From Lachnospiraceae bacterium (lineage in GTDB: Bacteria > Bacillota > Clostridia > Lachnospirales > Lachnospiraceae), in contig JAJQDT010000067.1 of assembly GCA_021202075.1 (NCBI GenBank), positions 6,056-70,055 on the forward strand: a stretch of DNA of 64,000 nt, given 5' to 3'. Under the pieces are notes generated by a model. It was not told the origin of the DNA, did not search any database, and saw only the letters and a list, made by a program, of their open reading frames with translations. The position numbers were made by a program, and so were the translations under genes. This document shows positions 875 through 46,861 of this stretch, piece after piece. Positions within the stretch are counted from its first letter, which is position 1, and every line of letters starts with the position of its first letter.

Positions 875-2494
875 TTACTCTGCGCCCACCTGCTCCATGA
901 TGGCCTTCACAGCGTCCCCAAAGCGGAACTTCACCTCCATGCGGTTGTCCCCGTAAATGTAGACCGCCTCCACCATCTTCTCGACCATCGGCCTCGTCAG
1001 CTCCTTTTCTTTTGACTTTTCCATCTCTTCCGCGATGCCTTTCGCCTCTTTGATGAAGGTGCAGGCTGCCGAGTCAAACGGCTCCGGTTCCCCCACAGCC
1101 TTCAGCTTTTCCTGCTCTGCCGCCAAGGCGTTTATCTCCGCATCCACGACCTCCCGCTTCTTCTTGTAGGCATCCAGCGTGATGTTCCCACCAGCGTAGT
1201 TCTCGTAGAGCCGCATCTTTTCTTTCCGGAGGACACCCATCTGCTGGTTCAGCTCCCCAATGCTTTTCTCCCGCTCAGCTTTCCGGCCGGCTTCCAGTCT
1301 GGTGTATTCCTCCATCTTCCCGCTCAGTTCCGCCAGCGACCGGCAGTAGTTGTAGACACTGTACCGCACGACTCCCTCGACCTTTTTCATCGAATAATCC
1401 TGCGGGCTGCAGCCGCTGTGTTTCTTCATCTCCCTGCCGTAGTCACACCAGACCCGTTCGTCCACGCTCCGCAGCTCCACATTCATTGCCCTGCCGCAGG
1501 TACCGCACCGGATTTTACCCTTCAGCAGGTAGTCGTTCTCCTTGTAGAATTCAATCTTCTTTTGCGCACGAATCACGCACTGTGCCTGCTCGAATTCTTC
1601 CCTGGTTACGATGGCCTCGTTTACCCCGTCGTGGATGATCCGTTCCTCATCCGGCACAGCACGGCTGACCTTGCTCCCCGTGATAACCGTCTGCCGTTTC
1701 CCCAACACCAGGGCACCCGTGTATTCGTAGTTCTGGAGTATTCTCCGCACCTTGCAGCCGTCCCAGATAACCACAGCCGAAACCGTGTGGAAGTTGCTCT
1801 TGCCTTTGACCTGCCGCTGGCGGTAGTATTCCGATGGCACCTGCACCCCTTCCTCGTTCAGCCGGTAGGCAATCTGGCTGCACTTGCGGCCTTCCAGCGC
1901 AAGGTCAAAGACGCGGCGCACAATCTCTGCCGCTTCCGGGTCGATGGCGTACCTGCCTTTCTCTTCCGGGTTAGGCATATAGCCGAAGGGAGTAGTGCCG
2001 CAGGTGCGGTACCCTTTCTTCCAGCGGCTGTAGTTGGATGTCTTCAGCTTCTTGGAAATGTCCCTGCTGTACATGGAGTTGACCAGGTTGCCAATCGCCA
2101 TGTCCAGCCCCATGGTCGTCCCCTTGTACTTGTCGCTGTCGTAGTTGTTGTTGACCGCGATGAACCGCACTCCGAGGACGGGGAAAATCTGCTCCAGGTA
2201 ATCGCCCACGCCGATATAATCCCTCCCGAACCGGGACATGTCCTTCACAATCACCGTGTCAATCCTGCCAAACCGCACATCGTCCATCAGACGCTCGAAC
2301 CCCGGCCTTTCGAAGTTCGTGCCTGTGTAGCCGTCATCGATGTATTCCTGGGATGCCTGCCCTTCGAATTCCTCTTTTGATTCCAGGTAAGTCCCGATCA
2401 GGAGCCGCTGGTTCTCGATGCTGTTGCTCTCGTCCTTACCGTCCCTGCCCAGGTCTCCGTCCGCCAGTGAAAGGCGGTAGTATTTCCCAATCAT
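875..2494 (-). CDS. Large serine recombinase D (4th of quartet, intact)
   Basis: 539-residue large serine recombinase. The resolvase domain starts with YYRLS, putting the catalytic Ser at residue 9. It continues with DDGYTGTNFERPGF and the arginine-bearing loop KDMSRFGRDY. Next come the recombinase domain, a zinc ribbon (CGTCG ... C-D-Y) near residues 340-390, and a C-terminal coiled coil. Such enzymes cut attP and attB with a 5'-phosphoserine link and exchange strands unidirectionally. The ATG at 2494 sits downstream of GGAGAGGAGG and directly abuts the stop of the preceding recombinase (2496-2498), so translation is probably coupled. The open frame extends upstream to 2653, but that part is the upstream gene read in another frame. 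Confidence 0.93.
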   Translation of the reverse strand: MIGKYYRLSLADGDLGRDGKDESNSIENQRLLIGTYLESKEEFEGQASQEYIDDGYTGTNFERPGFERLMDDVRFGRIDTVIVKDMSRFGRDYIGVGDYLEQIFPVLGVRFIAVNNNYDSDKYKGTTMGLDMAIGNLVNSMYSRDISKKLKTSNYSRWKKGYRTCGTTPFGYMPNPEEKGRYAIDPEAAEIVRRVFDLALEGRKCSQIAYRLNEEGVQVPSEYYRQRQVKGKSNFHTVSAVVIWDGCKVRRILQNYEYTGALVLGKRQTVITGSKVSRAVPDEERIIHDGVNEAIVTREEFEQAQCVIRAQKKIEFYKENDYLLKGKIRCGTCGRAMNVELRSVDERVWCDYGREMKKHSGCSPQDYSMKKVEGVVRYSVYNYCRSLAELSGKMEEYTRLEAGRKAEREKSIGELNQQMGVLRKEKMRLYENYAGGNITLDAYKKKREVVDAEINALAAEQEKLKAVGEPEPFDSAACTFIKEAKGIAEEMEKSKEKELTRPMVEKMVEAVYIYGDNRMEVKFRFGDAVKAIMEQVGAE

Positions 2495-2495
2495 C

Positions 2496-4181
2496 TCATG
2501 CCTCCTCTCCTGCCTTGTTTTCCACAGCCTCTTCAAATACATCTTTGAATTTGAACACGATCCGGATGTTCTTATCCCTTCCGACCTCAATCCGCTCCAC
2601 CAGCTTCTCCACCAGCTCCTTATTGAAGGACCGGTCCTTGCGGAAACCGGCAAGCTCGCTCGTGCGCTTATGGAAATTCGTGAGCCTCTGCTCCAGTTCG
2701 TGCTTCTCTTTCAGGGCATCCGCAAGCTTCGCCCCCGCTTCCGTTGCCTGCTCCATGTAGGCTTCTTTCATGTAGTTGTAATCGTCCGCCGTCAGGATGC
2801 CGTTTGCGTAATCCTCGTAGAGCCGTTCCCTCTTCATCCGGACCGCCTCGACCGTGGCGGCGGCATCGCTGGCCTTCCTGCTCGCCTGGTTCAACGGGTT
2901 CTTCCCGTCCTGCGTCCTGCACAGATCCCCTAGAGCCTTGTCCCTGTCGCAGACACTGTCGACAAAGCGGAAACATTCGTCCATCACCAGGGTCTTTAAA
3001 AGCAGCTCCGGAATCCGGTGCCCTCTGCACTGTGTCTCACATCCTTCTCCCCTGCACCGGTAGTAATTCCAGTTTTTCTTCGTCCCCTTACACTTGCGGA
3101 TGAAGAGCATCTGTGAACCGCAGTCGGCGCAGAAGACCAGCCGGTTTAAGTCATCCGGACGCTCTTCGCGGAATGCCTCGTTGTTCTTCCTCTGCTCCGC
3201 ATTTTCATGGAACTGCCCGTCCAGCCGTTCCCTCACCGCTTCAAAATCTGCCTTGCTTACCAGCGGCTCGTGCGTCCCCTCGGTGATGTTCCAGTCCTTG
3301 CGGTCCACCATGTGCATGGGCTTGCCTGCAAAAAGGGCTTTCTCCGTCCTGCCGGAAACCATCACGCCGGTGTAAACCGGGTGTTCGAGGATGCGCTTAA
3401 CCGCGTCAGGTCTCCACCTGCTGTCTTTCTTCTCAGCCCTCTTCATGCCAAGCTCTGTCGACCTCTGCCACACCGTCGGAGCATCCGCAAGGTCGAGCCT
3501 CCTCGCGATTTCCATCAGCGTCACACCCTCCAGCGCCCAATGGTAGATGAGCTTCACATACCAGGCTGTTTCTTCATCCGGCTCGTACTTTTCTTCTTCC
3601 CTGTTGTAAATGTAGCCGTAGGGTGCCACGCTGCTCATCGGCACACCCTTTTTCATCTTCTCGCGGGCTGCGCTGTGGACCTTCTTGGAGATGTCCTTGG
3701 CGTACATGGCGTTGACCATGTTCTTGATCGGGACCGCCAGGCTCTCCACATCCTCCTTCCGGAGGCTGTCGAAGTTGTCGTTGATGGCAATCAGCCTCAC
3801 CCCCAGAAACGGGAAGATGGTCTCGATGTAGTACCCAGTCTCAAGGTAATCCCTTCCAAAGCGCGATAAGTCTTTCACAACGATGCACCGGATTTTCTTT
3901 TTCCGCACATCCTCCATCAGCCGCTCAAAATCCGGCCTCTTGAAGTTTGTTCCCGAGTAGCCGTTGTCGATGTAGGTGTCCACCAGCTTCAGTTCGGGGT
4001 GGTCCTTTATGTACTCCTCCAGGTATGCAAGCTGCGTCGTGATCGTGTCGTCTGTTTCATTCCCGCTGTTCTCCAGTGAAAGCCTCGCGTAAGCAGCCGT
4101 CTCCCACCGCTCTTCCGGTTTTGCTCCCTGTGCCTGCGGGATGAATGCGGCTGTTGTTGCTTTCCTGCTCTTTCTTGCCAT
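2496..4181 (-). CDS. Large serine recombinase C (3rd of quartet, intact)
   Basis: 561-residue large serine recombinase. It has a 30-residue basic N-terminal extension before the catalytic AAYARLS motif (Ser about residue 35), then DNGYSGTNFKRPDF, KDLSRFGRDY and LIAINDNFDS. A zinc ribbon begins CADCG and continues with paired cysteines around residues 345-385. A long coiled coil and a basic C-terminus follow. Both catalytic Ser and active-site Arg residues are present, so it should be an active strand-exchange enzyme. It starts 3 nt after the stop of the degenerate recombinase, and its stop lies 1 nt from the next start. The sequence is clearly diverged from its three neighbours, so this is not a recent tandem duplication. 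Confidence 0.93.
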   Translation of the reverse strand: MARKSRKATTAAFIPQAQGAKPEERWETAAYARLSLENSGNETDDTITTQLAYLEEYIKDHPELKLVDTYIDNGYSGTNFKRPDFERLMEDVRKKKIRCIVVKDLSRFGRDYLETGYYIETIFPFLGVRLIAINDNFDSLRKEDVESLAVPIKNMVNAMYAKDISKKVHSAAREKMKKGVPMSSVAPYGYIYNREEEKYEPDEETAWYVKLIYHWALEGVTLMEIARRLDLADAPTVWQRSTELGMKRAEKKDSRWRPDAVKRILEHPVYTGVMVSGRTEKALFAGKPMHMVDRKDWNITEGTHEPLVSKADFEAVRERLDGQFHENAEQRKNNEAFREERPDDLNRLVFCADCGSQMLFIRKCKGTKKNWNYYRCRGEGCETQCRGHRIPELLLKTLVMDECFRFVDSVCDRDKALGDLCRTQDGKNPLNQASRKASDAAATVEAVRMKRERLYEDYANGILTADDYNYMKEAYMEQATEAGAKLADALKEKHELEQRLTNFHKRTSELAGFRKDRSFNKELVEKLVERIEVGRDKNIRIVFKFKDVFEEAVENKAGEEA

Positions 4182-4184
4182 GTG

Positions 4185-5609
4185 TCAGTCCATCTCCTTT
4201 CCTTCCCACCATTCCTGCGGCAGGTACCGTTTTGCGTCCTGGGCTTTGAAATCAACCTTCACACTGCTGTAATCTGCGCTGACGGTCACCCGCTCTGCCA
4301 GCTTCTGGAAAGCAGCCCGGCTTAAGGGCTCCGGAATCTCCGTATCCAGGAACAGCGTAACCCAGGGGTTTTTCAGGCTGAACACCATCTCCATCCGCTT
4401 CAGCTCATCTGTGATTTCTGTGACCTCCGCATCAAGGGATGCGAGGGCTGCGCTGTGCAGGCCGTCTGCCAGGAGCGGCTTCATCTCCTCCAGTGCTTCC
4501 TTCATCCGAACCGAAAGCCGTGCCTTTTCCTGCTGGAAGGAGTCCTCTGCTTTCCCTTCCTTAATCTTCTGTGCGGCAATCTCAGCCCGCTGTTTTTCTT
4601 CCATCAGCTGTTCCCTGGCCTGATCCGTCACCGTCTCAAAAGGAATGCTGTGGGCTATCCTGAGTTCTTTACTGCTTCCATAGAACGCTTTGTCAATGAA
4701 CCCTTCTTCACGCCTCAGCACCATGCTCTCCCCGGAGGCTTCAGAGAAAATCTGGTAGATGAAGGGGTTCTCCCTGTCTGATGTTTTCCGCTGGAAGACC
4801 CGCCGCTCCTCGTCAATCCGCGCCATGATCTTTGCCTGTTCTTCCTCACTGATGTATGCCTCACAGGGGATTTTTACAATCCTCCCGCCGTATTTCCGTT
4901 CAGCCTTTCCTGCGTACATTCCGCAGACCAGCACATCCATCACCTTGCTGGGATTCCATCCGCTGTTCCCTTCCGGCTCCCTGCCCTTTTTCTTCTGCTT
5001 ATAAGCGGCACGGTTCAGGATGCCGTTTTCATTCAGCCAGCGGGAAATACTGATGACTTTTTCCCCCGCAAGGTAGCGCCTGAAAATCTCATCCAGGTAT
5101 CCCGCGACTTCCTCGTCCTTTACGTAAGAAAGCCCATCCTCCGAGACTATAAAACCGTAGGGCGGCCACTTGGGGAGCTTCCTCACTTCCAGCCCGTCCA
5201 GCCACTTCGTAAGGGCTTTAGAGTGCATATCCCGCCGTTTCTGTTCAAAGTAGGCTGCCACCTCTTCCCGGCTATGCTCCGCAGTCTCGAAGCCATCCTC
5301 CGCCACCGCGAAGTGGATGCCAGCTGCATACAGCACTTCGAATGCCGTCTGCCTTGCCGTGGCCGGGTCGGGTCCGAAGTAGGGGAATGCCGCCACAACC
5401 ACCCCGTCGTACTGCCTTGCCATGCCATCGTTAATGAGCTGGCGCAGGCCTTCGCCGTCATCCTGCTTCTTCCGGTCGTTGTAGCGTTTTTCAACGTTCC
5501 AGTCCTTCCCCTTTGCGAAATTCTCAATCACCGCATTCTGCTCCCCGATGGTCAGCACAGTGTCCCTCTCTTCCCAGGGAACCAGCCTTGTGTAGCTTAC
5601 ATAGCGCAT
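4185..5609 (-). CDS. Catalytically dead large-serine-recombinase homologue (2nd of quartet)
   Basis: 474 residues with the outline of a large serine recombinase but without its chemistry. The YxRLS motif reads YTRLV, so Val10 replaces the catalytic Ser. The SRxGR loop carrying active-site arginines reads FPYFGPD. The cysteines of the zinc ribbon are absent (QIFSEASGESM at that place). The recombinase-type DNA-binding segment (SRWLNENGILNRAAY; VMDVLVCGMYAGKAERKYGG) and the coiled coil remain. The frame is intact over its full length and overlaps the upstream gene by 13 bp, so it looks maintained rather than decayed. I infer an architectural or accessory subunit of the other recombinases, for example a directionality or specificity partner. 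A transposase-like role cannot be excluded. Confidence 0.82.
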   Translation of the reverse strand: MRYVSYTRLVPWEERDTVLTIGEQNAVIENFAKGKDWNVEKRYNDRKKQDDGEGLRQLINDGMARQYDGVVVAAFPYFGPDPATARQTAFEVLYAAGIHFAVAEDGFETAEHSREEVAAYFEQKRRDMHSKALTKWLDGLEVRKLPKWPPYGFIVSEDGLSYVKDEEVAGYLDEIFRRYLAGEKVISISRWLNENGILNRAAYKQKKKGREPEGNSGWNPSKVMDVLVCGMYAGKAERKYGGRIVKIPCEAYISEEEQAKIMARIDEERRVFQRKTSDRENPFIYQIFSEASGESMVLRREEGFIDKAFYGSSKELRIAHSIPFETVTDQAREQLMEEKQRAEIAAQKIKEGKAEDSFQQEKARLSVRMKEALEEMKPLLADGLHSAALASLDAEVTEITDELKRMEMVFSLKNPWVTLFLDTEIPEPLSRAAFQKLAERVTVSADYSSVKVDFKAQDAKRYLPQEWWEGKEMD

Positions 5610-7240
5610 CTTGCTTCCTCCTTTGCGAACCCACTGACCGCCTGCAGGGTCTCTTCCATCTCCTCCTGGAAACGGAACCGCACCTCGATCCGGTCCTTAC
5701 TGTAGACGATGACTTTATCAATCAGGCTCACAGCCGCCTGCCTTGTCAGCTCCTCCATGTCCCTGTACCTGCGGAAAACATCCGCCCAGGCGATTCTGCC
5801 CTCGGTGAGGATCTGCGCTCTCCGCTCCAACAGCCTCTCCTTCGAACGCCTTGCCGCCTCCGCCTTTTCCGTGAAAGACTTGGAGAACTCTTCGTAATCC
5901 TCCGGAGTGACCACACCGGCTGCCATGTCCTCGTAAATCTGCCTGCGGAGCTTCACGTACCGGTCAATCTCCGCATCCAGCACCGCGATCTGCTGGTCTG
6001 TTGCCCTCGCCCGGTACTGCCGGTCCGGAATCCTCCCCAGCTTCTTTACCATGTCATCCAGGGCAATGACCGCCGCCACATGGCGCTTTAACTGTTCAAA
6101 AACCGCCGTGTAAAGCTTCTCCTCGTTGACCAGGTGGGAAGTGCATCCCCTCCGGGTGATGTAGGTGCTGCAATGCAGGTAGTAATAAGTCTTATTCTTC
6201 TTTTTCGTCATCCTGCGCACCATGTTCTCGCCGCAGTCCCCACAGACTACCAGCCCGGCCAGCGGTCTCACGGTTTCCGAGTCCGGTGAGCATCTTGTAT
6301 CCATATCGAGAAGCACCTGCACCATGTCAAATACCTCACGGTCAATGATGGCGTCGTGTGTGCCTTCCACGCGAATCCAGTCTTCCTCATCCACCGCCTC
6401 CGACCGCTTGACCTTGTAGTTGATTTTCCGGTTCTTTCCCTGGACCATCGTGCCGAGGTAGCTCTCGTTGGTCAGGATGCGCTTGACCTGCACGGCTCCC
6501 CATTTCGCTTTACCGGAGGATTTGTAGCCGCTGTTGAAGTTCAGCCCCTGCATCCGCTTGTATTCGAACGGGGAGGGGATTTCCTCCGCATTCAGCTTGT
6601 CCGCGATGCGCTGGCAGCTCATGCCCCGCATCCGGCACCTATAGATGTCCCGGATGACCTCCGCCGCGTACTCATCCACCACCAGGTGATTGTGGTCCTT
6701 CTCATCCTTCTTGTAGCCAAAAGCGGCAAAGCTCCCGATAAACTGGCCCGTCCTGCGCTTCACATCCAGCTGGCTTCTGACCTTCTGCGAAATGTCCTTG
6801 CAGTAGGCATCGTTGATGAGGTTTTTGAAAGGCACAATCACGTTGTCCGCCGTGTCCTCCTCATCCGCGCTGTCGTAGTTGTCGTTGACCGCGATGAAGC
6901 GGATGTCCATGAATGGGAAAATCCTGTCCACGTACCGTCCAGTCTCGATGTAGTTCCTCCCCAGCCTGGAAAGGTCCTTTACCAGGATGCAGCTGATTTT
7001 CCCGCGCTTCGCGTCCTCCATCATCCTCGTGAACCCAGGCCGGTCGAAGTTCGTGCCTGTGTAGCCGTCGTCTACGTACTCGCCCGCGATCTCCATCCCC
7101 GGGGTTTTGGCTACAAACTCCGTCAGCAGGGCACGCTGCCCTCCGATGCTGTTGCTCTCGGCCTTGTCACCGTCCTCTGCGGAAAGCCGCAGATAAAGCG
7201 CAGCATCCTCTTTCCTGTTCCTTCCTTTTTTCTGCAACAT
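5597..7240 (-). CDS. Large serine recombinase A (1st of quartet, intact)
   Basis: 547 residues from the chosen start. It has the catalytic LYLRLS motif (Ser20), DDGYTGTNFDRPGF, KDLSRLGRNY and FIAVNDNYDS in the resolvase domain. Then come the recombinase domain with a Y-L-G-T-M-V-Q-G-K strand, a zinc ribbon (CGDCGENM ... LHC ... GC), a coiled coil and a final beta strand. It is the first gene of the operon. The start is uncertain: AAGGAGG at 7253-7259 is 3 nt from ATG 7249 and 12 nt from ATG 7240. I use 7240; the difference is three residues. Its stop overlaps the start of the degenerate recombinase. Confidence 0.93.
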   Translation of the reverse strand: MLQKKGRNRKEDAALYLRLSAEDGDKAESNSIGGQRALLTEFVAKTPGMEIAGEYVDDGYTGTNFDRPGFTRMMEDAKRGKISCILVKDLSRLGRNYIETGRYVDRIFPFMDIRFIAVNDNYDSADEEDTADNVIVPFKNLINDAYCKDISQKVRSQLDVKRRTGQFIGSFAAFGYKKDEKDHNHLVVDEYAAEVIRDIYRCRMRGMSCQRIADKLNAEEIPSPFEYKRMQGLNFNSGYKSSGKAKWGAVQVKRILTNESYLGTMVQGKNRKINYKVKRSEAVDEEDWIRVEGTHDAIIDREVFDMVQVLLDMDTRCSPDSETVRPLAGLVVCGDCGENMVRRMTKKKNKTYYYLHCSTYITRRGCTSHLVNEEKLYTAVFEQLKRHVAAVIALDDMVKKLGRIPDRQYRARATDQQIAVLDAEIDRYVKLRRQIYEDMAAGVVTPEDYEEFSKSFTEKAEAARRSKERLLERRAQILTEGRIAWADVFRRYRDMEELTRQAAVSLIDKVIVYSKDRIEVRFRFQEEMEETLQAVSGFAKEEARCAM

Positions 7241-7249
7241 AAAAACCAT

Positions 7250-7536: not shown

Positions 7537-7809
7537 TCACATCCCTGCCAGGATGCAGTCCTTCACGGCGTCCTCCAGGGAGCATTTCCCCGCGAAACTC
7601 ACCTTGACCGCTATGTCCCCTACCTTATAGCAGTAGGGGTTCCCCACCTGCCGGATGAAGTCGAGGATGCGCTCCTTCTGGGGGAGGCTGTTGTCAACGT
7701 TCACATCCCGGATGTCCGTGAGGGTGTCCTTATCTACTGTGCGGATGTCCACATCCCGCATGGCCTCCAGCTCTGCCGGGGTTGGGATTTTGAAATTCTT
7801 ATCTGCCAT
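7537..7809 (-). CDS. DUF6870-like small protein beside the recombinases
   Basis: 90 residues from the ATG at 7809, which has GGAGGG 6 nt upstream. It resembles the small clostridial family DUF6870, with the recognisable core AAMRDVDIRT-like segment (here EAMRDVDIRTVDKDTL), then DIRDVNVD and a C-terminal IRQVGNPYCYKVGD. The function of the family is unknown. It lies between the lysis module and the recombinase operon, downstream of the late terminator (7828-7857), so it may be expressed by read-through. The family name is recalled from pattern, not searched. Confidence 0.65.
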   Translation of the reverse strand: MADKNFKIPTPAELEAMRDVDIRTVDKDTLTDIRDVNVDNSLPQKERILDFIRQVGNPYCYKVGDIAVKVSFAGKCSLEDAVKDCILAGM

Positions 7810-44454: not shown

Positions 44455-46485
44455 TCACTGCTCCCAGGGCATCGACGGGTCGGTGAAGTGTCCGTAAGCC
44501 GATACCTTGTTGTAGTCCACATCCAGCAGCCCCAGCGTCTTAATGATGCCTTTCGGCGTCAGGTCGTAGCTGTCACGGATGTAAAAGTTTATGAATTCCA
44601 GCGGCTGGGTTTCTGTACCGAAACAATCCACCGCGATGCTTACCGGCTCCGCCACACCAATTGCGTATGCCAGCTGGACTTCGCATTTATCCGCGTAACC
44701 AGCCCTCACAATATCCCTCGCGATTTTCCGCGCCATATATGCGGCTGACCTGTCCACCTTTGTGGGGTCCTTGCCAGAATTTCCAGTTACAAACACTCGG
44801 TTTTCTCTACGTAGAACAAGCATTCCTGTTGGGACACTGAAACAGTACATTTTCCCATCAGATGGAAAGTACCGCTCAACCGTCATAGTATTATTTGTAC
44901 AGAGGCTCGCCTTTATCTGAGTCTTGGTCACTTCTTTACGGTAAACCTTATATAAAATACTTTTCCTTGTATAGCCGTTCCCAAAAGGCTGACCCATGCG
45001 ATCATCCACAGAAATGCTTGCATTTGTTCCGTATGAAGCCATAAATGCGAACTGCACAAAATCGGCATCCTTCTTCTTGGTAGTCCGAAAGATGCCTTCT
45101 TCTCCATCCCATAATTGAACCTCATCTGCAATTATTCTTAATTGCCTGGAATCAGCCCCCTGCAAACACTGATGCAACAATCTTGACTCTATAGGAGGCT
45201 TAAACCAAAAAATGCGGAACTCATTGTCCGCAGTTTCCGTATATTCTGTATTTGTATTTTTCAGAAGTGCGCGCATCCGCTCAATTTTATGGGGCTTTTT
45301 TACACGAACACGATCACGATCCTTGCCTTTGATAATGGTTCCGTCAGCGCAAAAAGCAACCTGCAGACAGATTTCGTCATCCGTCATATACAGATTGCTC
45401 TCATTCTTCTCATATTGGAAAGACACTGGAATAAATCCATGATTACCATTCTTTATCGTCCCATTTTCAAATACTTGCTTAACCTGTTTTTTTATCACAT
45501 TTCCTTTACCCGTGATTATCACCATATCATGGTTTTCTGATAACACCATATCAAGCGCATCTGAAGAATGAATGTGATACATTACCCCTGCTTCATCTTT
45601 AATGAACGCATTCGGTTTTACAAATTCAAGCTTTCCAAAATTCCACTGTCCAACCAGATCTCCATCGGTGTAATCACGTATTGATTTGAATCCTTCGGGA
45701 GTGAGAAATTCCGTGTCTCCATCAACGCAATGAGCCCCTCCGCCGATTCTGCCGATTCCACCATAGGTGTCGCACGCCAGTTTCCGTCCCGTCACACCGC
45801 AGTCTGCGAAAGAGCCTCCCTTCACAAATCTGCCTGTCGGATTGATGAGCGTTTCAAAGTCGGAGTTCAGCCCATATTCCATAGCCGCCATAATCATGAG
45901 CGTTTCTACAATCGTGCGGAAATCAGAAGCGGTCACATCCTCGCTGTGCTGCACGGAGCAGAGGAATGTGGTGATTTTCCCGGTATCGTAATCGTAGGAA
46001 ACCTGTGCCTTGGCATCCGCCCGGAACATCCTGGAAGGATGCTGCTTTAAGAGCTTCAAAAAGCGGGTCGTCACCATATACGGAACCGGGAGCAATTCCG
46101 GCGTCTCATTGGAAGCCCATCCGTACATAATGCCCTGGTCGCCAGCGCCATTTTTGCCATCCACGCCAAGCGCAATATCCGGCGACTGCTCACTGACCAT
46201 AATGCCGATATCGTAAGGCGCGGCATAAATTGGTTCATAAACAAAGCCGCTTCTCTCGCGGCCTATCCTTTCAAATACCTCATCCACAAGCTGCCTGTAA
46301 TCCGGCTTATGTCTGCTGGTCAGCTCGCCAGCAATAATGATGTGGTTGTCCTTTATCAGTACCTCCATCGCGACACGGCTGTCTTTATCATGTTTCAGGC
46401 AATCTGTCACGATGGCATCCGCGATCTGATCGCATATCTTGTCCGGATGACCGTCTGAAACCTGCTCACTCGTGTAAATCCTCAT
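44455..46485 (-). CDS. metK: S-adenosylmethionine synthetase interrupted by an intein
   Basis: 676-codon frame. The exteins (252 + 107 residues) make a 359-residue MetK: TSEQVSDGHPDKICDQIAD at the N-terminus, GAGDQGIMYGWA, and, after splicing, G-G-G-A-H joined to SGKDPTKVDRSAAY. The enzyme makes SAM from ATP and methionine. The real start is ATG 46485, 8 nt from GGAGG; the open frame upstream is the neighbour read out of frame. The intein (44779-45729) splits the most conserved active-site loop, so the enzyme should be inactive until splicing. SAM would feed the two downstream methylases. Confidence 0.93.
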   Translation of the reverse strand: MRIYTSEQVSDGHPDKICDQIADAIVTDCLKHDKDSRVAMEVLIKDNHIIIAGELTSRHKPDYRQLVDEVFERIGRERSGFVYEPIYAAPYDIGIMVSEQSPDIALGVDGKNGAGDQGIMYGWASNETPELLPVPYMVTTRFLKLLKQHPSRMFRADAKAQVSYDYDTGKITTFLCSVQHSEDVTASDFRTIVETLMIMAAMEYGLNSDFETLINPTGRFVKGGSFADCGVTGRKLACDTYGGIGRIGGGAHCVDGDTEFLTPEGFKSIRDYTDGDLVGQWNFGKLEFVKPNAFIKDEAGVMYHIHSSDALDMVLSENHDMVIITGKGNVIKKQVKQVFENGTIKNGNHGFIPVSFQYEKNESNLYMTDDEICLQVAFCADGTIIKGKDRDRVRVKKPHKIERMRALLKNTNTEYTETADNEFRIFWFKPPIESRLLHQCLQGADSRQLRIIADEVQLWDGEEGIFRTTKKKDADFVQFAFMASYGTNASISVDDRMGQPFGNGYTRKSILYKVYRKEVTKTQIKASLCTNNTMTVERYFPSDGKMYCFSVPTGMLVLRRENRVFVTGNSGKDPTKVDRSAAYMARKIARDIVRAGYADKCEVQLAYAIGVAEPVSIAVDCFGTETQPLEFINFYIRDSYDLTPKGIIKTLGLLDVDYNKVSAYGHFTDPSMPWEQ
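44779..45729 (-). mobile_element. Intein in MetK, with degenerate LAGLIDADG-like endonuclease
   Basis: 317 codons from Cys1 (CVDGDTEFLTPEGFKSI, block A) to the final Asn (block F/G YCFSVPTGMLVLRRENRVFVTGN), followed by extein Ser. Block B is SENHDMVI. The penultimate residue is Gly rather than the common His, a variant known in other inteins. The centre resembles a DOD-type homing endonuclease: LQVAFCADGTI, then an I-A-D-E-V...D-G-E-E-G-I-F-R-T-T-K-K-x-D-A-D-F-V-Q block. The first LAGLIDADG acid is present, but completeness is uncertain. The intein is A/T-richer than its exteins. Confidence 0.9.
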
Positions 46486-46861
46486 CGTTCTCTTCCTCCA
46501 TATTCGCCTTTCTTCCCATCCACCAGTCACACGGCACATCTTTCCCGCACCTGCAGCGGTAGCGATACTCCCCTTTTCCCTGTAACTGGTAAGGAACCAT
46601 CTCGAATCCGCATTTCGGACATTTCCGTCTCGGAACAACCACGGCATTCGCTTCAATACCCCCATCTGCCGCCAGATTATAAGGCAGGACTTCCGTATAC
46701 CCGTCATCCCACTCAACCAGCGCAAGGCAGTAGCTGTAAACGGTCTCATCACAGCCGATTTTAATATCCGTCCCCCTGCTTGTCCTCAGTTCCGTCATCA
46801 CCGTGCAATTCCTCGGCAGCGGCATCATCTGTTTGATGTTGTAATCCCTGTTTTTCTTCAT
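46466..46861 (-). CDS. Zinc-ribbon protein upstream of SAM synthetase
   Basis: 131 residues, ATG 46861 behind AGGAGCAGG. The N-terminal half is a small barrel (IKIGCDETVYSYCLALVEWD). The C-terminal half is a zinc ribbon (RKCPKCGFEMVPYQ ... YRYRCRCGKDVPCDWW). It overlaps MetK by 20 bp and MazF by 101 bp. The overlap with MazF falls in the acidic tail of MazF. Function unknown; nucleic-acid binding is plausible. Confidence 0.65.
   Translation of the reverse strand: MKKNRDYNIKQMMPLPRNCTVMTELRTSRGTDIKIGCDETVYSYCLALVEWDDGYTEVLPYNLAADGGIEANAVVVPRRKCPKCGFEMVPYQLQGKGEYRYRCRCGKDVPCDWWMGRKANMEEENDEDLHE

Follow-up and report, generated by a model that had tools for sequence, protein, structure and literature searches.

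The serine-integrase triplets of streptococcal ICEs consist of three integrases encoded in one orientation near the end of the element, and the proteins cluster according to their position in the set (Ambroset et al. 2016, PMC4701971). As described there, these ICEs possess direct repeats of 2–8 bp and insert into genes, among them a gene that belongs to another ICE, and the authors report a Resolvase domain with the conserved serine for all 42 serine integrases of the study. Judged by its description, this triplet is the closest known system to the set of four large serine recombinase (LSR) genes, here called a quartet, that we found in a prophage of a Lachnospiraceae bacterium. When set against that description, three quartet members (A, B, and C) and the corresponding members of triplets are likewise of the active type and cluster by position, and one triplet element has a 5-bp repeat (AAGGA) inside a gene of another element. 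Unlike the streptococcal triplets, the quartet possesses a fourth gene, P, which lies between A and B and whose product lacks the catalytic serine; quartets also occur in a prophage and beside relaxase genes.

CcrA and CcrB of SCCmec are another case in which one mobile element carries more than one LSR gene, though the gene number differs from that of the quartet, and we know of no catalytically dead member among them. The use of a serine recombinase for architecture instead of cutting is exemplified by the resolvase dimers at subsites II and III and by Sin at its regulatory site; in those systems a single active protein serves for both tasks, whereas the quartet has a separate dead paralogue. 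Pseudo-enzyme subunits are well known in other systems. Among openly licensed papers, we found no description of such a subunit for site-specific serine recombinases, nor of a dead LSR subunit or a recombinase quartet, and our literature search found no experimental work on the multi-gene serine-integrase sets of Lachnospiraceae. According to PMC3783163, which also mentions CcrA and CcrB of SCCmec, the coiled coil governs which sites may pair in LSRs, and the zinc ribbon or the coiled coil of the integrase could be where recombination directionality factors (RDFs) act.

Gene content of the cassette

The window, by which we mean the whole stretch of 64,000 nucleotides that was analysed, has four consecutive LSR genes on the reverse strand (875–7249) in the order A, P, B, C. 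The cassette lies at one end of a siphoprophage, and to its right are the genes for terminase, portal, major head protein, head protease, tape-measure, and endolysin. Gene A (5597–7249, reverse strand, the start codon at 7249 or 7240 being our reading) encodes an active-type LSR with YLRLS, SRLGR, and the zinc cysteines, and its last 13 bp overlap P. Gene B (2496–4181, reverse strand) follows 3 bp after P and encodes an active-type LSR that starts with MARKSRK and has YARLS and SRFGR. The last cassette gene, C (875–2494, reverse strand, start codon again our reading), is also of the active type, with YYRLS and SRFGR. All three match the Pfam Resolvase and Recombinase models, and Zn_ribbon_recom is matched above the cutoff by A and B and slightly below it by C; their matches to the CcrA, CcrB, and CcrC models are far below the cut-offs. 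A gene for a small DUF6870 (PF21757) protein is found upstream of A (7537–7809, reverse strand, with the start codon as we read it).

The P gene (4185–5609, reverse strand) is an ORF of 474 amino acids with an ATG start located 7 nt downstream of the ribosome binding site AAAGGAGG (5624–5617); this site and its spacer (5610–5624, reverse strand) lie within the 3′ end of A, which stops at 5597. The product begins with MRYVSYTRLV, with Val10 at the catalytic position, and has FPYFGPD where the neighbouring recombinases have SRxGR. It also lacks R68 and R71. Only two cysteines (229 and 249) are present, both in the recombinase domain and neither in the zinc-ribbon region. The only Pfam domain that P matches above its cutoff is Recombinase (PF07508, E 1.3e-9), neither the Resolvase catalytic domain nor the zinc ribbon being recognised. 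The original prediction had described a recombinase homologue with YTRLV in place of YxRLS, FPYFGPD in place of SRxGRx, no zinc-ribbon cysteines, a full open frame with RBS spacing and DNA-binding motifs retained, and a 13-bp overlap with the preceding recombinase gene; the ORF translation and the comparison with the neighbours bear out each detail that could be checked.

From the alignment and the structural model, we read the P protein as an N-domain (residues ~1–147), a recombinase domain (~148–270), a cysteine-less zinc-ribbon-like part (~271–322), a coiled coil (~323–408), and a C-terminal part with an NPW motif. The domain order (N-domain, PF07508, ribbon, coiled coil) and the fold are those of the TP901-1, A118/LI, Bxb1, phiC31, and SPbeta YokA integrases, from which P differs by the absence of the serine and of the full set of R45, R68, and R71, and, in most P, of zinc cysteines. 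A full LSR fold is predicted by AlphaFold (pLDDT 87.8, with the TP901-1, Bxb1, phiC31, and SPbeta integrases as structural matches), in a model whose pTM of 0.44 leaves the domain arrangement unsure. The mean net charge of the P recombinase domain (+3.7) falls within the range of the partners (+2.2 to +4.9), and that of the coiled coil is −6.1, against −2.1 to +0.2 in the partners.

Elsewhere in the prophage, inspection of the ORF translation by eye suggests that an S-adenosylmethionine-synthetase-like frame (44455–46752) is interrupted by an intein-like stretch (CVDGDTEFLTPEGFKSI ... VTGNSG).

Homologues and gene order

Our collection comprises 35 distinct P genes from 34 loci, 33 of the genes with open frames; besides these, two loci (L035 and L161) have a diverged relative, P′, and a further one (L160) has a P that is decayed. 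Two further P genes, with 31 and 33% identity, are present in the window's own genome. The first search of 98 genomes (E ≤ 1e-12) gave matches in 10, namely the own genome and nine others, all of the same genus and one of them (G042) carrying the diverged P′. With a profile of 11 P sequences (E ≤ 1e-60), P was found in 9 of 47 genomes of the genus, including its own, and outside the genus in two (G102 and G353) of 397 sampled genomes of the family, where P-like scores (at least 332 bits) are well separated from the next matches (at most 202 bits). In the search of the order (392 genomes), at least one genome besides the own (G756) has P; the counts for family and order are lower bounds, taken from the best three candidates per genome.

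A contig search contributed 15 further P loci from MAGs of Lachnospiraceae and other Clostridia and from one isolate, Blautia luti MSK.16.34, whose quartet (L093) has all four frames open; seven of the 15 were taken to be the same contigs as stretches already collected and were removed from the counts. IMG/VR yielded eight P loci, after a first scan with the window P alone as query had given no P matches, and one more locus came from an unannotated faecal phage record. Rarity of homologues had been named beforehand as a sign against a maintained accessory subunit. The 35 distinct genes speak against such rarity, but outside the window's genus P is indeed rare among the genomes searched.

The order of the genes is highly regular. 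Gene B follows P in all 35 cases, although it is cut by contig ends in some and truncated in L032. Gene A lies upstream of P in 31 of the 32 cases that can be evaluated (three loci begin at P), the exception being the second P of L089, which lies behind a C gene. Gene C comes after B in 29 of 30 evaluable cases, L032 being the miss, and is split in L095. For 31 long P or P′ genes the gene upstream is available; in 25 of them the overlap between the start and the preceding stop measures either 4 bp (22 genes) or 13 bp (three genes). With 35 distinct genes, 33 of them open and all of them before B, P is no isolated relic.

One locus (L089, 14931–19830) has a second P-B-C block right behind the first cassette, giving the order A-P-B-C-P-B-C, in which the second P overlaps the first C by 4 bp.

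Active-site residues

The catalytic serine is absent from all 34 long P proteins (33 P and the diverged P′ of L035) and present in every partner that could be scored (26 A, 35 B, and 29 C). R45, R68, and R71, which we take to be the phosphate-binding arginines, are retained in 3, 15, and 11 of the 34, respectively, and in none of them together. Asp36, in contrast with these residues, is kept in 33 of 34. The first zinc cysteine remains in seven of 34, the window P having none. Lacking both the YxRxS serine and the complete arginine set by which an active LSR is recognised, P would not be classed as an active enzyme from its sequence.

The residue after the catalytic position is serine in 25 of 34, proline in the window P and seven others, and threonine in one. 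Cutting by a nucleophile shifted to this position is rejected because nine P have proline or threonine there and none has the complete arginine set.

Selection and broken copies

The P gene is under purifying selection, which is weaker than that on its partners. The comparison of dN/dS among homologues, a check named in advance, gave 0.08–0.26 for 10 pairs of P (Nei–Gojobori), far from neutral, whereas comparable pairs gave 0.02–0.07 for A, 0.02–0.10 for B, and 0–0.14 for C; dS exceeds 1 in some pairs, for which these values are rough. Within pairs, the ratio of P to partner dN/dS ranges from ~0.9 to 9 with a median of ~1.7 (24 ratios, one pair with a dN of 0 being excluded). When pooled over six pairs, the N-domain (0.108) and the recombinase domain (0.119) are the most constrained parts of P, followed by the ribbon (0.147), the C-terminus (0.227), and the coiled coil (0.234); the N-domain of A gives 0.037 in the pooled comparison. 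Such a low value for an N-domain devoid of its serine is not expected of a protein freed from function.

Broken copies do exist. The P of L033/L101 has a frameshift and that of L029 a premature stop, with B and C open in both; A is open too in L101 and is cut off by the contig end in L029. The decayed P of L160 is missing the recombinase domain, and the P′ of L168 is reduced to an N-domain remnant. The other cassette genes also suffer damage, since A is broken in L096, C in L095, and A is split by insertions in L009, L095, and L097. A decaying pseudogene is ruled out for the P family by the dN/dS values and the open frames, single broken or decayed copies (L029, L033/L101, L160, and the P′ of L168) notwithstanding. 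Frameshifted or neutrally evolving homologues, which would have spoken against the original prediction, were thus found only as two broken copies of 35 and the decayed L160 lineage. Its claim of a maintained non-catalytic member of a multi-recombinase set is supported by the conserved place of P, the usual 4- or 13-bp overlap with A, the history shared with the partners, and the purifying selection.

Shared history with the partners

In a tree of 120 rows, made with a quick method and containing some long branches, P forms one clade (31 rows), and quartet A (13), B (14), and C (14) each form one clade with strong support, separate from the A, B, and C of triplets. The same main split recurs in all four quartet clades: the window, L024, and L082, joined by L100 in those clades that contain it, stand apart from all others. 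A more careful tree, made for B, unites the 15 quartet B proteins, including that of L160 with its decayed P, in one clade (100/100) and places the P′ lineage as sister to it with moderate support (90/73).

Distances between P proteins correlate with those of A, B, and C in 17 cassettes (r 0.82–0.86; 0 of 2000 permutations each), and the correlations among A, B, and C themselves are 0.75–0.83. The partial correlations (P–B 0.48, P–A 0.42) are only weak hints at contact because they mirror gene adjacency, and linkage alone may suffice.

A profile of B, built from 13 B genes of quartets that had been found through P, was used to search the same genomes. The 13 best B in the 47 genomes of the genus (at least 651 bits) all adjoin P, two of these P being broken, and the only two others above 650 bits in the 397 genomes of the family also adjoin P. 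The next-best matches in the genus are L160 (585 bits, decayed P), two P′ loci, and then triplets. No quartet-type B without P or its remains turned up in these 47 and 397 genomes; since eight of the 15 matched B were already in the profile, the search shows just that a P-less quartet-type B did not surface. For one further match (G208, 543 bits), nothing was found at the site on the one strand read.

Triplets, the DUF6870 gene, and insertion sites

Triplets of A, B, and C without P are abundant in the Lachnospiraceae searched; P is therefore an addition and not a general need. Several multi-LSR sets of family genomes contain other serine-less or truncated LSR genes, namely L119 (7000–8649 and 4630–5385), L128 (11244–12932 and 9987–11243), and L116 (1663–2508), some of which are without any catalytic domain.

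All 20 triplet-type cassettes have a DUF6870 gene upstream of A, a count that takes in L116 and L128 with their other odd LSR genes and L129, which is cut by a contig end. Among the 21 quartets for which 400 bp or more of sequence upstream are available (three insertion-split A genes left out), 15 have it as well, and so does one of five single LSR genes (L125). The predicted structure of the DUF6870 protein (pLDDT 78.5) has no PDB match at E ≤ 0.001, so its function is not readable from the fold, and none of the papers found in a literature search mentions it.

A MobA/VirD2-type relaxase gene stands beside the quartet in the four loci tested (L024, L088, L091, and L101). With quartets present both in the window prophage and beside relaxase genes, the cassette seems, from its gene neighbourhoods, to be mobile between different kinds of element.

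At the expected ends of the window prophage, an 11-bp direct repeat, AGCTTACCACA (704–714 and 64024, the latter just past the window), is a weak candidate for the att core; by our estimate, chance alone would give roughly one match of this kind in the zone searched. An empty site of this prophage was not found, and in the four best relatives the match starts no earlier than the first gene past the junction and runs inwards from there.

In one genome (G000), a triplet element is seemingly inserted in a quartet A gene at the SRLGR codons (L009, 8822, contig C91, and L187, contig C59). The 5′ half of the split gene is on C59 and the 3′ half on C91, and the 5 bp AAGGA are common to the two junctions. 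An integrase gene would here be the target of another integrase element. Two other genomes show this element end at an identical position in quartet A genes that differ (L097/L025 near 833, and L095 near 8601), and the target has therefore been used repeatedly.

Possible roles of the fourth gene

We suggest, with a rough probability of 0.5, that A, B, C, and P together make up a heteromeric serine integrase in which P is a regulatory subunit, non-catalytic and DNA-binding. Being unable to cut, P would itself carry out no strand exchange. Because serine recombination proceeds by cutting every one of the four strands, a core tetramer that included P would be blocked; P would have to act away from the positions where cutting takes place, or else keep the complex in an inactive state. 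The helix of its N-domain would dimerise with an active partner, the neighbours A or B being our first guesses, and P would bind an att half-site or a flanking site. The acidic coiled coil could serve as the contact to the coiled coils of the other subunits, and P would then set when and which att sites pair. Its effect might be control of synapsis, a brake, or an architectural one. The original prediction had proposed an effect on directionality or target choice, perhaps exerted as a heteromer with the neighbours; both may apply.

We favour a regulator of synapsis because the oligomerisation and DNA-binding parts are kept and the coiled coil, the site-pairing part in LSRs, is unusually acidic. 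Against a regulatory subunit stand the many triplets that do without P, the loci in which P is broken or decayed, and its faster evolution compared with the partners. The zinc ribbon, moreover, is a DNA contact in LSRs, and its cysteines are lost in most P.

P could instead be a built-in brake, in which the dead protein joins the tetramer or occupies the att sites and blocks exchange, the element staying integrated for as long as P is not outnumbered, much as truncated transposases repress their own transposons. A dominant-negative subunit needs just what P retains, since the nucleophile is lost while the oligomerisation and DNA-binding domains are kept, and a P within the core would stop four-strand cutting. 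However, with the start of P lying within A, the two proteins are probably produced jointly, which would leave the brake always on unless there is other control, and freer loss would be expected than two broken copies of 35. We regard this alternative as unlikely.

Somewhat less probable is an architectural subunit at accessory sites that shapes synapsis without cutting, by analogy with resolvase at subsites II and III or with Sin. The intact DNA-binding domain and the constrained N-domain would fit such a role, in which phosphate-binding arginines are dispensable, but the extra binding sites that it calls for were not located.

It is improbable that P is an RDF recruited from a recombinase copy. 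The possible action of RDFs on the zinc ribbon or coiled coil, as given in PMC3783163, would suit the unusually acidic coiled coil of P, yet the coiled coil and the C-terminus are its least constrained parts. Triplets without P must excise too, and a DUF6870 gene precedes A in every one of the 20 triplet-type cassettes as well as in 15 of the 21 quartets counted above. Because it accompanies the P-less triplets, P is less likely to be the excision factor, and in multi-LSR cassettes the DUF6870 protein is, in our view, the better candidate for that role.

That P cuts with the next-position serine seen in 25 of 34, or is a slowly decaying relic of which two copies are broken and others decayed, is very improbable given the proline or threonine in nine P, the arginines that never occur together, and the dN/dS of 0.08–0.26 with 33 of 35 frames open, which exclude neutral decay of the family.

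Returning to the regulatory subunit, we tentatively picture an obligately heteromeric integrase of three cutters and one pseudo-enzyme that governs synapsis or directionality. P may have arisen once, in an A-B-C triplet before the split of P′, and the cassette may since have moved between phages and mobilisable elements of gut Clostridia.

Multi-gene serine-integrase sets, both quartets and triplets, are common in the Lachnospiraceae searched. If P controls the pairing of sites, DNA cutting would be separate from synapsis control in the quartets, and directionality, an open question for LSRs, could be tested by adding or removing one gene. A non-cutting subunit that acts in trans would also be a natural switch for LSR tools.
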